Part shown: positions 3,548 through 13,136 of the stretch, in pieces
Numbering within the stretch: the first letter of the stretch is position 1
Layout of the letters: every line of letters begins with the position of its first letter
Assembly (NCBI GenBank): GCA_001871015.1
Contig: MNUO01000133.1
Coordinates: 1 to 15,973 of the forward strand
DNA: 15,973 nucleotides
Source: Candidatus Desantisbacteria bacterium CG1_02_38_46
GTDB taxonomy: Bacteria; Desantisbacteria; UBA1551; UBA1559
Reading direction: 5' to 3'
The notes under the pieces: generated by a model
What the model was told of the DNA's origin: nothing
Seen by the model: only the letters and a program-made list of their open reading frames with translations
Database searches by the model: none
Position numbers and translations under genes: made by a program

Positions 3548-4669
3548 ATGGAGCAAAAGATGGAAAGATTAGCAAGAAAATGCATATTGAAAATAAAGCC
3601 GTATGTTCCCGGAAAGCCGATTGAGGAAGTAGAAAGGGAATTGGGCGGGTACCCCGATGTAACATCGGGGTGGGAAGCGATAAAACTTGCTTCAAACGAG
3701 AATCCATTTAGTCCACCCTCAGGTGTTTTGAAGGCAATAAGGGAGTATTTACCAAAACTCAATCGCTATCCAGATGACCATGGATATTATTTAACAGGTG
3801 CATTGGCGAAGAAGTATAGGGTAAAACAGGAAAACATAATTCTTGGCTGCGGCAGTGATGAGATTATGGAACTGGTTTCAAAGACTTTTCTTGAACCCGA
3901 CGAGGAAGTTATATTCGGGGACCAATCATTTGTAATGTACAAAATCATCACACAGATTATGGGTGGCAAGCCAGTTGCAGTGCCATTGAAAAATTATACA
4001 TATGATTTGATAGCAATAAGGAGGGCAGTTACAAAAAAGACAAAAATTGTTTTCATTGCAAATCCCAATAATCCAACAGGAACAATCGTGTGCGATAAAG
4101 AGGTCAGGCAATTTATCAGAAATATGCCAAAGAATATTATCATAGTCTTTGATGAAGCGTATGCTGAATATGTGGAGTCTAAAGATTATCCCCGCAGTCT
4201 TGAAATTGTGCAGGAGAATCGCAATTGCGTAATGTTGCGCACATTTTCAAAAATTTGTAGTCTTGCGGGTTTACGCATAGGCTATGGCATTGCCAATCCA
4301 CAACTTATTGCCTGTCTGAATCGCGTGCGCCTGCCGTTTAATACATCTAATATTGCACAGGTTGCAGCACTTGCAAGTCTTAAGGAAACAAAATGGATGG
4401 AAAGAATCAGGCGAATCAACCGTGAAGAAAAGAAGTTCCTCTATTCAGAGTTCGGGAAAATGGGTTTAGAATATATTCCAAGTGAAGCCAACTTTATTCT
4501 GGTTAAAATTGGCAGGGATGCACCAGGAGCGGCGCAGGGATTATTGAAAAAAGGTATTATTGTACGTGTAATGACTGATTTCGGTTTTCCCGAGTATGTA
4601 AGGGTGACAATTGGCAGACCGGTGGAGAACAAGAAATTTGTGAAAGCGTTAAAACAGTGTATAAGTTGA
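3548..4669 (+). CDS. hisC: Histidinol-phosphate / aromatic aminotransferase, HisC type
   Basis: This is a class I/II PLP-dependent aminotransferase of 373 residues. Visible motifs are KLASNENPFSPP (46-57), NPNNPTG (172-178), FDEAYAEY with Asp202, and TFSK with Lys235, expected to hold the PLP. The C-terminal VRVTIGRP has the carboxylate-binding arginine. HisC proteins act on histidinol phosphate, but close relatives also transaminate phenylpyruvate and hydroxyphenylpyruvate. Its place after pheA and the absence of other his genes here favour an aromatic role, possibly dual. Residues 35-42 (YPDVTSGW) are encoded by a perfect palindrome and appear inserted between the usual ...VERELG and ...IKLASNENP segments. 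The frame is intact, so the enzyme is probably functional. AGAGG lies just before ATG 3548. Confidence 0.9.
   Translation: MEQKMERLARKCILKIKPYVPGKPIEEVERELGGYPDVTSGWEAIKLASNENPFSPPSGVLKAIREYLPKLNRYPDDHGYYLTGALAKKYRVKQENIILGCGSDEIMELVSKTFLEPDEEVIFGDQSFVMYKIITQIMGGKPVAVPLKNYTYDLIAIRRAVTKKTKIVFIANPNNPTGTIVCDKEVRQFIRNMPKNIIIVFDEAYAEYVESKDYPRSLEIVQENRNCVMLRTFSKICSLAGLRIGYGIANPQLIACLNRVRLPFNTSNIAQVAALASLKETKWMERIRRINREEKKFLYSEFGKMGLEYIPSEANFILVKIGRDAPGAAQGLLKKGIIVRVMTDFGFPEYVRVTIGRPVENKKFVKALKQCIS
3651..3671 (+). repeat. Perfect palindrome inside hisC, likely inserted in frame
   Basis: Arms ACCCCGATGT (3651-3660) and ACATCGGGGT (3662-3671) surround a single A at 3661. It codes for residues 35-42 of the aminotransferase, at a point where HisC homologues normally run straight from the N-terminal ELG segment into IKLASNENP. 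This resembles a short palindromic repeat accommodated by the reading frame. Confidence 0.75.
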
Positions 4670-4678
4670 GAAAAATCA

Positions 4679-4768
4679 GACCTGAAGGTCCGTAGCTCAG
4701 GGCTTTAGCCCTGACCTGCTGTAACTCAGGACTTTAGTCCTGATATCAAACCTAAAGGTTTGAGTTAC
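4679..4768 (+). repeat. Array of four short hairpins with a shared design
   Basis: Four palindromes follow hisC: 4679-4690 (GACCT-GA-AGGTC), 4697-4714 (TCAGGGCT-TT-AGCCCTGA), 4726-4743 (TCAGGACT-TT-AGTCCTGA) and 4746-4763 (TCAAACCT-AA-AGGTTTGA). The last three are 18 bases long with eight-base arms, and arm changes are matched by the opposite arm. GTAACTCA (4721-4728) and TGAGTTAC (4761-4768) form an outer inverted repeat round the last two. They lack a T-run, so they are not ordinary terminators, but could stabilise the hisC mRNA 3' end or slow the polymerase. Confidence 0.85.
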
Positions 4769-4776
4769 AACACTTT

Positions 4777-4785
4777 TGGTATAAT
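4777..4785 (+). promoter_or_regulatory. Possible extended -10 promoter for the cysE operon
   Basis: TGG-TATAAT at 4777-4785 matches the extended -10 at 326-334, including the flanking TT. No good -35 is found at 16-18 bases; the nearest is TTTGAG (4759-4764) at 15 bases, inside the last hairpin. Transcription from here would put the tandem hairpin unit and the MITE-like element in a leader of about 170 bases before cysE. Confidence 0.5.
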
Positions 4786-4795
4786 TTCCTTAGCT

Positions 4796-4879
4796 ATCGA
4801 GTAAACTCGACCACTACAGTAGTGGCAGACCTTGGTCTGCTTTAGATCGAGTAAACTCGACCACTACAGTAGTGGCAGA
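4796..4879 (+). repeat. Tandem double-hairpin repeat, two 34-base copies
   Basis: Identical 34-base units at 4796-4829 and 4846-4879 start 50 bases apart. Each contains TCGAGT-AA-ACTCGA followed at once by CCACTAC-A-GTAGTGG and then CAGA. Between them GCAGACC-TT-GGTCTGC (4825-4840) forms a further hairpin. The fragment CCACTACAG reappears at 4946-4954 directly before the cysE ribosome site, as if a third copy had been interrupted. No protein is encoded. Confidence 0.9.
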
Positions 4880-4884
4880 GTAAT

Positions 4885-4946
4885 GTCATTGCGAGGGCAG
4901 AGCCCGTGGCAATCCAATAAGATTGCTTCACTTCGTTCGCAACGAC
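4885..4946 (+). mobile_element. MITE-like element with imperfect terminal inverted repeats
   Basis: The 62-base element begins GTCATTGCGA and ends TCGCAACGAC, which are inverted copies with 9 of 10 positions matching. Inside, GGCAATC (4908-4914) and GATTGCT (4921-4927) are inverted copies, so the whole folds into a branched hairpin, and GGGC-AGA-GCCC forms a small stem in the left half. It has no coding capacity. A half copy in the opposite orientation is at 1328-1359, so the family is dispersed. The right end abuts the cysE ribosome-binding site. Confidence 0.72.
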
Positions 4947-4962
4947 CACTACAGGAGAAAAG

Positions 4963-5697: not shown

Positions 5698-6450
5698 ATG
5701 GCAAAAATTTTGGTAACAAATGACGATGGAGTTCACTCGCCAGGTCTTGAAGTTTTAAGAAAACATTTGAAAAAACTTGGAGATGTGATTGTGGTTGTTC
5801 CTGAGCGGGAGATGAGCACTGCAAGTCACTCGCTAACTCTGCGTAGTCCTCTGCGCGTGTCACGAATAAAGAAAGGAATTTTTATTACCAGTGGCACTCC
5901 CTCGGATTGTATAAATATCGGGACCCTGGGAATATTGAAGGAAAAGCCGGTTCTGGTGGTCTCCGGAATAAACAGGGGTCCAAACCTTGGTGATGATATC
6001 ACATACTCCGGGACTGTTGCTGCAAGCATTGAATCCACGCTCAGAGGTATTCCTTCCTTTGCCATCTCTGTAGCAAGTTTTAAAAACTGCAGGTTCAATT
6101 TAGCAGCAAAATTTGCGTTTATTCTGGCGCGATATATCCTGAAGAATGGATTGCCATCGCATACATTTCTTAATGTAAATGTCCCGAATGTAAGCATAAG
6201 GAGTATTCAGGGAGTGGAGATAACGCATCAGGGTAAGAGAATCTATAAGGAGAATCTCGTAAAACGCACTGACCCCAGAGGGCGGACATATTATTGGCTT
6301 GGAGGAGATGAACCGACTGGCGAAATTGAGGAAGGGACTGATTTTGCAGCAGTTGCCAGGAAAAAAATTTCTATAACACCTGTGCAACTTGACCTGACTG
6401 ATTACAAAATGATTGATAAATTGCGAAATTGGCATATTAAATTCCCGTAA
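5698..6450 (+). CDS. surE: 5'/3'-nucleotidase SurE
   Basis: SurE is a metal-dependent nucleoside monophosphate phosphatase linked to stationary-phase survival. The 250-residue protein is full length with the N-terminal metal site NDDG (8-11), the STASHSLT segment, SGTPSDCINIG, and the strongly conserved SGINRGPNLGDD followed by YSGTVAASIE. The family's C-terminal dimerisation arm region is present through LTDYKMIDKL. The ribosome site is weak (AAGGAA well upstream), so translation may depend on coupling from cysE, whose stop is 12 bases before. The next gene, pcm, starts one base after the surE stop; this pairing is widely conserved, for example in Escherichia coli. Confidence 0.96.
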   Translation: MAKILVTNDDGVHSPGLEVLRKHLKKLGDVIVVVPEREMSTASHSLTLRSPLRVSRIKKGIFITSGTPSDCINIGTLGILKEKPVLVVSGINRGPNLGDDITYSGTVAASIESTLRGIPSFAISVASFKNCRFNLAAKFAFILARYILKNGLPSHTFLNVNVPNVSIRSIQGVEITHQGKRIYKENLVKRTDPRGRTYYWLGGDEPTGEIEEGTDFAAVARKKISITPVQLDLTDYKMIDKLRNWHIKFP

Positions 6451-11606: not shown

Positions 11607-13136
11607 ATGGCATATCAATCATTGGCATTAAAATATAGGCCGCAGAATTTTGATGAAATTATCGGGCAGTCTCATGTAACACAGACGCTGAAGAGTGCGG
11701 TAGGGACCGGGCGAATTGCGCACGCATATCTTTTTAGCGGTCCCAGAGGAATTGGCAAAACTTCAACAGCCAGAGTTTTAGCCAAGTGCTTGAACTGCGA
11801 GAAAGGTCCGACTTCCAATCCCTGTGGAAAGTGCACAATGTGCCGCGAAATTACAGGTGGAGTGTCAATTGATATTCTTGAAATCGATGCTGCTTCTCAT
11901 ACAGGGGTTGAAGAAGCAAGGGATTTGATTGAAAAAGTAAAATTTGCATCCGGAGCAGCAAAATATAAAATGTATATTATTGATGAAGTACATATGCTCA
12001 GCCCTCAAAGTTTTAACGCTCTTTTAAAGACAATAGAGGAACCTCCTCCAAGTGTTGTATTTGTTCTTGCCACAACTGTGGCGCACAAGGTTCCACAAAC
12101 TATACTTTCGCGATGCCAGTGGTTTGTATTCAGACGAATTTCTGTGCAAGACATAGTGAGTCATTTATTAAAGATTAGCAAAGCAGAGGGAATAAAGATA
12201 AGCGAGAATTCCCTTTATGCGATTGCCCGTCATGCAGAAGGTGCGTTGCGTGACGCTGAGGTCAGTCTTGACCAGATTATTTCATTCAGTGGGGACGATG
12301 TAAAGGAAGAGGATGTGAATGCGTTGCTTGGAATAATCAGGCCGGATTTCTTTCACGCTTTCATTAAGGGTTTAATAAACAGGGATATTACATCAACCAT
12401 TAAATTAATCGCAGAGCTTATTGAAAGTGGTTATGAGGTGGAAAATTTTATTAAAGGATTGCAGGAATATCTGCGTAATTTGATAGTTTTAAAAGATGAG
12501 TCTAATCAAACGAAAGAAATTGATTTTACCCTTGTGGATCTTCCAGGAGAGGAAGTGAAAAAACAAAAAGAGGAAGCCACAGTATTCTCTGAAGAGGAAA
12601 TAGCGTGGATGCTGGATGTAGTTTCGCAAACACAGAAGGACCTGCACTTATTCGGAATGCGAGGGCAGGAAAGATTAATTTTAGAATTGATGGTTATTAA
12701 ACTGATAAAGCAACGGGAACACGAGCATACTCCAGAAGAAAAAGGGCCAGAGACTCCTCAGTTAGAATTGAAGAAAGGGGAAATCCAGAAAAGATGGACT
12801 GATGTGGTTGAAGCTATGAAGAAAGAGAAAGTTTCTCTTTCTCATTTTTTAAAGGGATGCATACCAGGGGAAATTAAGGATGGGATTCTTTTGGTAGTTT
12901 TTGCTAAAGAAGTGATGTTTCACAGAGAGAGGGCAGAAGAGCGTGAGAACAGAGAGAGCATAGAAAAGATATTGTGCAAGGTGTATGGAAGAAAACTGAG
13001 GGTTAAGTTTATCCCCGGAGAAAATCTGGCAGATGTGCAGAGAAGCCAACCTCTCCAGCAATCCGAGGACCCGGTTACAAAAAAGATAATTGATTTATTT
13101 AAAGCAAGGGTTATAGAGAGGAAAAAGATAGGGTAA
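11607..13136 (+). CDS. dnaX: DNA polymerase III subunit gamma/tau
   Basis: DnaX is the motor subunit of the clamp loader that places the sliding clamp at primers. The 509-residue protein has the AAA+ core: Walker A GPRGIGKT (45-52), the four zinc cysteines 64, 73, 76 and 79, Walker B DEVH (126-129), sensor LATT (154-157) and the SRC arginine finger (Arg169). A lid and collar region follow. The C-terminal part, from about residue 380, is charged and diverged, as in tau tails, and is short for tau, so both the gamma role and tau-type contacts are plausible. ATG 11607 follows a run of nine A with no good ribosome site: GGGAG lies about 20 bases upstream. No YbaB or RecR gene follows, unlike many genomes; glxK starts on the stop codon. 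Confidence 0.97.
   Translation: MAYQSLALKYRPQNFDEIIGQSHVTQTLKSAVGTGRIAHAYLFSGPRGIGKTSTARVLAKCLNCEKGPTSNPCGKCTMCREITGGVSIDILEIDAASHTGVEEARDLIEKVKFASGAAKYKMYIIDEVHMLSPQSFNALLKTIEEPPPSVVFVLATTVAHKVPQTILSRCQWFVFRRISVQDIVSHLLKISKAEGIKISENSLYAIARHAEGALRDAEVSLDQIISFSGDDVKEEDVNALLGIIRPDFFHAFIKGLINRDITSTIKLIAELIESGYEVENFIKGLQEYLRNLIVLKDESNQTKEIDFTLVDLPGEEVKKQKEEATVFSEEEIAWMLDVVSQTQKDLHLFGMRGQERLILELMVIKLIKQREHEHTPEEKGPETPQLELKKGEIQKRWTDVVEAMKKEKVSLSHFLKGCIPGEIKDGILLVVFAKEVMFHRERAEERENRESIEKILCKVYGRKLRVKFIPGENLADVQRSQPLQQSEDPVTKKIIDLFKARVIERKKIG

Follow-up and report, generated by a model that had tools for sequence, protein, structure and literature searches.

Palindromic repeats that lie in frame within genes are best known from Rickettsia. 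The Rickettsia palindromic elements (RPEs) are repeats of 100-150 bp from Rickettsia and Wolbachia, and RPE-4 and RPE-6 have a CGTC end (PMC3767692, PMC3733652). These dispersed palindromes occupy in-frame positions in conserved, unrelated genes, which stay intact. They are found in solvent-exposed or loop regions, and the same DNA is readable in several frames (PMC3767692; PMC3733652). The GTAG/CGTC REPs are palindromes of 20-40 bp with many copies, some of which are intragenic, and with compensatory changes in their stems (Di Nocera et al. 2013). Intragenic tagged REPs are known from a few other species: Opitutus terrae, R. conorii, Thioalkalivibrio, and Thauera (Di Nocera et al. 2013; PMC3733652). 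The enzyme TnpA-REP acts on single-stranded REP hairpins, which it cleaves and joins next to a guide tetranucleotide (PMC8266576).

We analyzed a stretch of 15,973 nucleotides (the window) from Candidatus Desantisbacteria bacterium CG1_02_38_46, in which a 21-bp palindrome lies within a hisC-type gene. It shares with the RPEs the dispersed copies, the in-frame and loop positions, and the readability in several frames. With the GTAG/CGTC REPs, it shares the many copies, some of them intragenic, and the compensatory stem changes. An earlier note on this DNA had likened it to RPEs, and the two are of the same kind, in that both are in-frame palindromes in unrelated conserved genes. Unlike the RPEs, the unit is just 21 bp, has another sequence, usually lacks the CGTC end, and is from Desantisbacteria rather than Rickettsiales. 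Unlike the GTAG/CGTC REPs, most of the copies are untagged, and in ten genomes, we found no RAYT gene with the palindrome on both sides (although a flanking RAYT is not required of CGTC REPs). A CGTC end tag is present in 2 of 20 copies in the host genome and in 9 of 30 copies in a related genome, CG1_02_49_89, while GTAG is found within 8 nt of the end for 4 of 20 and 1 of 30 copies, respectively. Since GTAG is above background in the host genome, a minority of the host copies may be GTAG-tagged. Other GTAG-tagged families (GTAGTGGCAGAG..CTCTGC) share the host genome with the palindrome.

Because most copies lack the tag and no cognate RAYT was found, we do not class the palindrome as a GTAG/CGTC REP or an RPE. 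We consider it a short variant, mostly without tags, that works in the same way as intragenic REPs and RPEs do. We found no earlier description of it in the open papers that we searched. The setting here is an uncultured phylum, with about ten housekeeping genes affected in one genome. We put the probability at roughly 0.7 that a dispersed REP-like palindrome was inserted as DNA into the hisC-type gene, with the likeliest route being a single-strand hairpin that was inserted in trans by a Y1 enzyme.

The palindrome in the hisC-type gene

Positions 3651-3671 of the window (ACCCCGATGTAACATCGGGGT) are a perfect palindrome, ACCCCGATGT-A-ACATCGGGGT, with ten-base arms around a single A, just as the earlier note had read it. 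In a window of the same length and composition, about 0.018 palindromes with arms of at least 10 and a spacer of 1 would be expected. We annotated the 21 bp as an insertion without a strand; its ends are ambiguous by one base, so 3650-3670 is an equally good fit. The host gene (3548-4669, + strand) encodes a class I/II aminotransferase of 373 amino acids and of the HisC type (histidinol-phosphate or aromatic aminotransferase), and the palindrome does keep the reading frame. The neighbors of this gene, which from our reading of the ORFs are presumably PheA-like and serine-acetyltransferase-like, are also found around hisC in Candidatus Desantisbacteria CG1_02_49_89 (L017). This metagenome-assembled genome (MAG; G001), whose HisC is 75% identical, is the only one in our set from the same order. 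G001 was matched to CG1_02_49_89 by the copy of the palindrome at position 722, whose flanks are identical in contig MNUP01000120.

In an alignment of 26 HisC sequences, which includes the one from CG1_02_49_89, all 25 of the relatives lack exactly seven residues at the site of the palindrome. The relatives have ELG-IK-EAIKLASNENP, while the protein in the window has ELG-GYPDVTSGW-EAIKLASNENP. The aligned segment is ERELGGYPDVTSGWEAIKLASNENP in the window and ERELGIKEAIKLASNENP in CG1_02_49_89; for the DNA, these are GAATTGGGCGGGTACCCCGATGTAACATCGGGGTGGGAAGC and GAACTCGGTATAAAGGAAGC, with a net difference of 21 bp. The solved structure of HisC from C. jejuni (3GET) has the identical seven-residue gap, and none of the 25 relatives has the YPDVTSGW residues without the palindrome. 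So, relative to the nearest available HisC and 24 others, it is exactly the palindrome block that is extra. The earlier note considered all of YPDVTSGW to be extra. These residues are indeed encoded by the element and its junctions (codons 35-42, at 3650-3673 on the + strand), but the net gain of 21 bp is just seven amino acids, so one of the eight residues stands for an ancestral residue.

In an AlphaFold2 model from the 26-sequence alignment (mean pLDDT of 93.3), the element encodes a predicted loop that follows a helix (residues 25-31) and precedes the IKLASNENP strand. The one stretch where pLDDT falls below 50, residues 37-40, is within this loop, which agrees with the loop-like N-terminal position that had been proposed. 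Most likely, the extra residues are neutral.

Copies elsewhere in two Desantisbacteria genomes

We searched the host genome (1.73 Mb in 133 contigs) by patterns and by sampled stretches that total 262 kb. Allowing up to two mismatches, we counted 20 copies of the core CCCCGATGTNACATCGGGG in the host genome and 33 copies in CG1_02_49_89. As a control, the reversed core pattern has 0 copies in either genome. The core had no copy in 55 of the 57 other genomes that we searched. The consensus for the family, CCCCGATGT-N-ACATCGGGG, is a REP-like perfect palindrome of 19-21 bp, usually with one or more extra pairs. The earlier note had suggested looking for the palindrome between genes and inside them, and it occurs in both settings: about half of the 20 copies in the host genome are intergenic and half are inside conserved genes.

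Pairing within the palindrome is kept as its sequence varies. Among 50 copies, both sides of a pair had changed in 20 cases, compared to 2.8 expected if the sides were independent. Complementarity was kept in 18 of the 20 cases (mostly TCCC...GGGA), but since sub-families share descent, these are not 18 separate events. Similarly, the inner sequence ATGTNACAT occurs 18 times in the 262 kb, and at 15 of these sites, at least 4 of the 6 flanking positions are paired. Dyad symmetry that is preserved by compensatory changes might indicate a regulatory or RNA-level signal (an operator or an mRNA hairpin) that is kept in genes for its function. The hisC message does have a stable predicted RNA hairpin (about -15 kcal/mol alone, and z of -3 in context). 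This explanation seems very unlikely, as the copies are in unrelated genes and unrelated places (mid-gene, intergenic, or inside repeats), in both orientations and in all frames, and a binding site for a protein would not tolerate paired changes of the outer bases so freely. A word that is recognized across the genome, such as a DNA uptake word, would be another way to account for inverted pairs; in Neisseria and Haemophilus, such words often come in pairs of this kind. Most uptake words are single, though, while only 2 of 20 CCCCGATGT half-sites were outside of a recognizable copy (in the 262 kb, from stretches chosen around copies). This largely refutes the idea, and we give it hardly any weight.

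Ten of the 20 copies in the host genome are in ORFs that match conserved Pfam families. Besides the HisC-type aminotransferase, these are NrdD, a penicillin-binding transpeptidase (PBP), TopA, GcpE/IspG, DapF, RnfC, a DHODB-type electron-transfer subunit (PyrK-like), a CDP-alcohol phosphatidyltransferase, and an M24 peptidase. In CG1_02_49_89, genes with a copy encode DnaE, thymidylate kinase (Tmk), a DUF2961 protein, a relative of the CCA-adding enzyme, and the E2 component of a 2-oxoacid dehydrogenase.

We compared orthologs between the two Desantisbacteria genomes and found exact net insertions of 21 bp (seven codons) in hisC, nrdD, and pbp2. NrdD has QCAYR-VPRCNIGVS-KENI, while its ortholog has QCAYR-AG-KENI; pbp2 has RGADTTMLHRGGKKF instead of RGEGNMKF. 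The palindrome is read in a different frame in each gene, as YPDVTSGW (hisC), VPRCNIGV (nrdD), or TTMLHRGG (pbp2), which implies that DNA was inserted and not a protein motif. The length of the HisC N-terminal loop varies between families, so the extra residues might have been an ordinary lineage-specific loop whose codons are palindromic by chance. The low expected number of such palindromes, the 20 occurrences of the same 19-mer in the genome, and the identical DNA in three frames of three genes refute this, and it has practically no chance of being correct. Instead, since the repeat is also present in about nine other conserved genes, it seems that working proteins are gaining sequence from a tiny DNA element that is spreading. 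The earlier note's suggestion that a mobile short palindrome can become part of a conserved enzyme is supported by the copies in ten conserved-family ORFs and by the three exact insertions, which make the case stronger than the note had put it.

At other sites, the comparison is less simple. In topA, ispG, dapF, and dnaE of CG1_02_49_89, the palindrome is within a larger insert, and the inserts in topA, ispG, and dapF also hold GTAG-tagged palindromes such as GTAGTGGCAGAG...CTCTGC. For the M24 peptidase, the CDP-alcohol transferase, and Tmk of CG1_02_49_89, the comparison of orthologs did not identify a clean insertion, and we left these out of the count of insertions. The copies in the M24 peptidase and Tmk take the place of local sequence instead of adding to its length.

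The main rival to insertion by an enzyme is a copying process that is templated by hairpins and needs no transposase. Template switching that is primed by a hairpin, or recombination between palindromes, would swap the tips of hairpins, and the element would be a by-product of DNA synthesis. Replacement of local sequence, as in the M24 peptidase and Tmk, fits with this. So do several copies that are located within the loop of another repeat or at its tip, for instance tcattgcgag[TCCCGATG..CATCGGGG]cgtggcaatcc (L007), with similar joints in other phyla. But there is no recognizable earlier hairpin in the sister hisC, nrdD, or pbp2 genes, and each of the three genes gains exactly 21 bp with one junction pattern. 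Overall, we consider copying of this kind to be unlikely.

If the palindrome is instead inserted as DNA, its effects on proteins would be mild. The 21-bp unit has no stop codon in any frame (PDVTSG, PRCNIG, or PMLHRG) and its length is a multiple of three, so the reading frame is kept wherever it lands. Selection would then retain the copies that fall in flexible loops. Insertion would be nearly harmless, which gives a testable model of selfish hairpins that add loops to proteins.

Two further observations concern these genes. At sites in ispG, rnfC, and the pyrK-like gene, CG1_02_49_89 has other short repeats where the host genome has palindromes: GTCCGACGTCCGACGTCCGACGT (L198, about 5990-6110, with L240), ACCGTGGACCGTTGACCGTGGACC (L203, 2722, with L236), and ATCCAGCATCCAGCATCCAGG (L187 with L247), respectively. 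These loops take up different repeats in the two genomes. Also, the nrdD gene with the palindrome has an intein with a LAGLIDADG homing-endonuclease domain (L203, 5062-9000).

Similar palindromes in other phyla

We also found copies of the core in MAGs from other phyla: two from Planctomycetota (25 and 21 copies), a Brocadiaceae bin (54), Elusimicrobia UBA5214 (31), and a Chloroflexi bin (24). One further bacterium has 14 copies. The reversed pattern gave 0 matches in the multicopy MAGs from other phyla. Isolates of Streptomyces, Streptosporangium, Methylobacterium, and Melghirimyces each have a single copy. Conserved genes with a copy outside of Desantisbacteria encode Mfd/TRCF and NAD kinase (both from Planctomycetota) and a leucyl-tRNA synthetase. 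Compared to solved structures, the NAD kinase and the leucyl-tRNA synthetase have extra residues in the region of the copy.

The core also matches within RNase P RNA, rRNA, and a cobalamin riboswitch of other phyla. These matches looked like insertions, but at least the one in L065 coincides with a naturally occurring P8 hairpin; its UAAC loop and its stem, rich in G+C, are similar to the core. Single matches in RNA genes may therefore be convergent, and we did not use them as evidence.

A minimal palindrome, without its own transposase or the known REP tags, might move between genomes of several phyla (Planctomycetota, Brocadiaceae, Elusimicrobia, Chloroflexi, and Desantisbacteria) and repeatedly write the same three short peptides into conserved genes. 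We view this as rather doubtful. If true, no smaller element that recurrently lengthens proteins would be known. With one 19-mer present in several phyla, one may ask whether so short a sequence moves horizontally.

Candidate enzymes and other palindrome families

The earlier note described the palindrome as mobile. The dispersed copies and the exact net 21-bp insertions in three genes support this, but we did not find a dedicated transposase, and we infer that it moves by transposition of a folded single strand. In the route that we favor, a Y1 (HUH) enzyme of the IS200 or RAYT kind would insert the folded hairpin in trans, and the 19-21-bp palindrome would enter the hisC-type gene as DNA. 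This seems the likeliest route because of the lack of target-site duplications, the shared flank (GGRT^...^GRG), and the RAYT and IS200 genes that are flanked by other dispersed palindromes. Specifically, the sites in hisC, nrdD, and pbp2 all fit the junction GGRT^A[...]T^GRG, and none of them has a target duplication (both statements rest on these three sites). Insertion beside a short fixed flank and without a target duplication, as at just these three exact sites, may also be a link to IS200/IS605 elements and to the non-autonomous elements derived from them. We did not find an insertion sequence with the exact palindrome.

There are three matches to PF01797 (Y1/HUH enzymes) in the host genome and ten in CG1_02_49_89. 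Those in the host genome are a RAYT-like protein just below the cut-off of the model, one with an internal stop, and a fragment at the end of a contig. In CG1_02_49_89, the gene for one protein that passes the RAYT model NF047646 has CCTCAACTTGTTGAGG-type palindromes on its flanks, and on the flanks of another PF01797 gene is TCAGGGCTTTAGCCCTGA, from a family that is also found 3' of hisC in the window. An IS200-type gene in this genome is flanked by end hairpins, CCCCGCGGCTTGCCGCGGGG, which are dispersed (15 exact copies and one variant). Among 31 PF01797 loci from ten genomes, no RAYT or IS200 gene has the CCCCGATGT palindrome on both sides, so either action in trans or an unseen enzyme must be assumed. 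Variants of the palindrome are downstream of one PF01797 locus (L260) and 1.3 kb from another (L271). The palindrome is not identical to the IS200 end hairpins from the same genome (CCCCACCGCTTGCGGTGGGG for the host genome and CCCCGCGGCTTGCCGCGGGG for CG1_02_49_89). As a defined substrate, it could be used to find the enzyme that moves untagged palindromes.

An IS200-type element from Elusimicrobia UBA5214 (L255, 21-546) has end hairpins CCCTAATGCTTGGCATTAGGG and CCCCGATGCTTGGCATCGGGG. The CCCCGATGCTTGGCATCGGGG hairpin has the same eight outer pairs as the palindrome in hisC, with a CTTGG loop instead of TNA, and the CTTGG form is not dispersed. This element is a possible source of the palindrome family, and we treat it as no more than a lead.

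Other palindromes are found in the window as well. Downstream (3') of hisC, at 4675-4960 (no strand), is an intergenic cluster of other REP-like palindromes that is separate from the element and illustrates the palindrome load of the genome. It includes TCAGGGCTTTAGCCCTGA, GTAGTGGCAGACC..GGTCTGC, TCAAACCTAAAGGTTTGA, TCATTGCGAGGGCAGAGCCCGTGGCAATCC, and an exact 34-nt repeat with GTAGTGGCAGA that occurs at 4796 and again at 4846, among others. A second long perfect palindrome, AGAAAGAGAAAGTTTCTCTTTCT, with 11-bp arms, is inside a dnaX-like ORF (12820-12842). The intergenic palindrome TGCTCGCCGCGGCGAGCA (654-671) has near-identical copies in L198 (at 14286 and 18628), so it is another dispersed family.

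On contig 23 of CG1_02_49_89, two PF01797 (RAYT-like) genes have TCAGGGCTTTAGCCCTGA or TCAGACCTGAAGGTCTGA palindromes on either side (L183, 1267-2083; L184, 1399-2026). These are likely to be REP-RAYT units, and their families are abundant in the host genome as well. In the RAYT-like proteins of both Desantisbacteria genomes, the C-terminal part matches the C-terminal region of DnaA (L177, 1402-2439; L181, 1453-2460).
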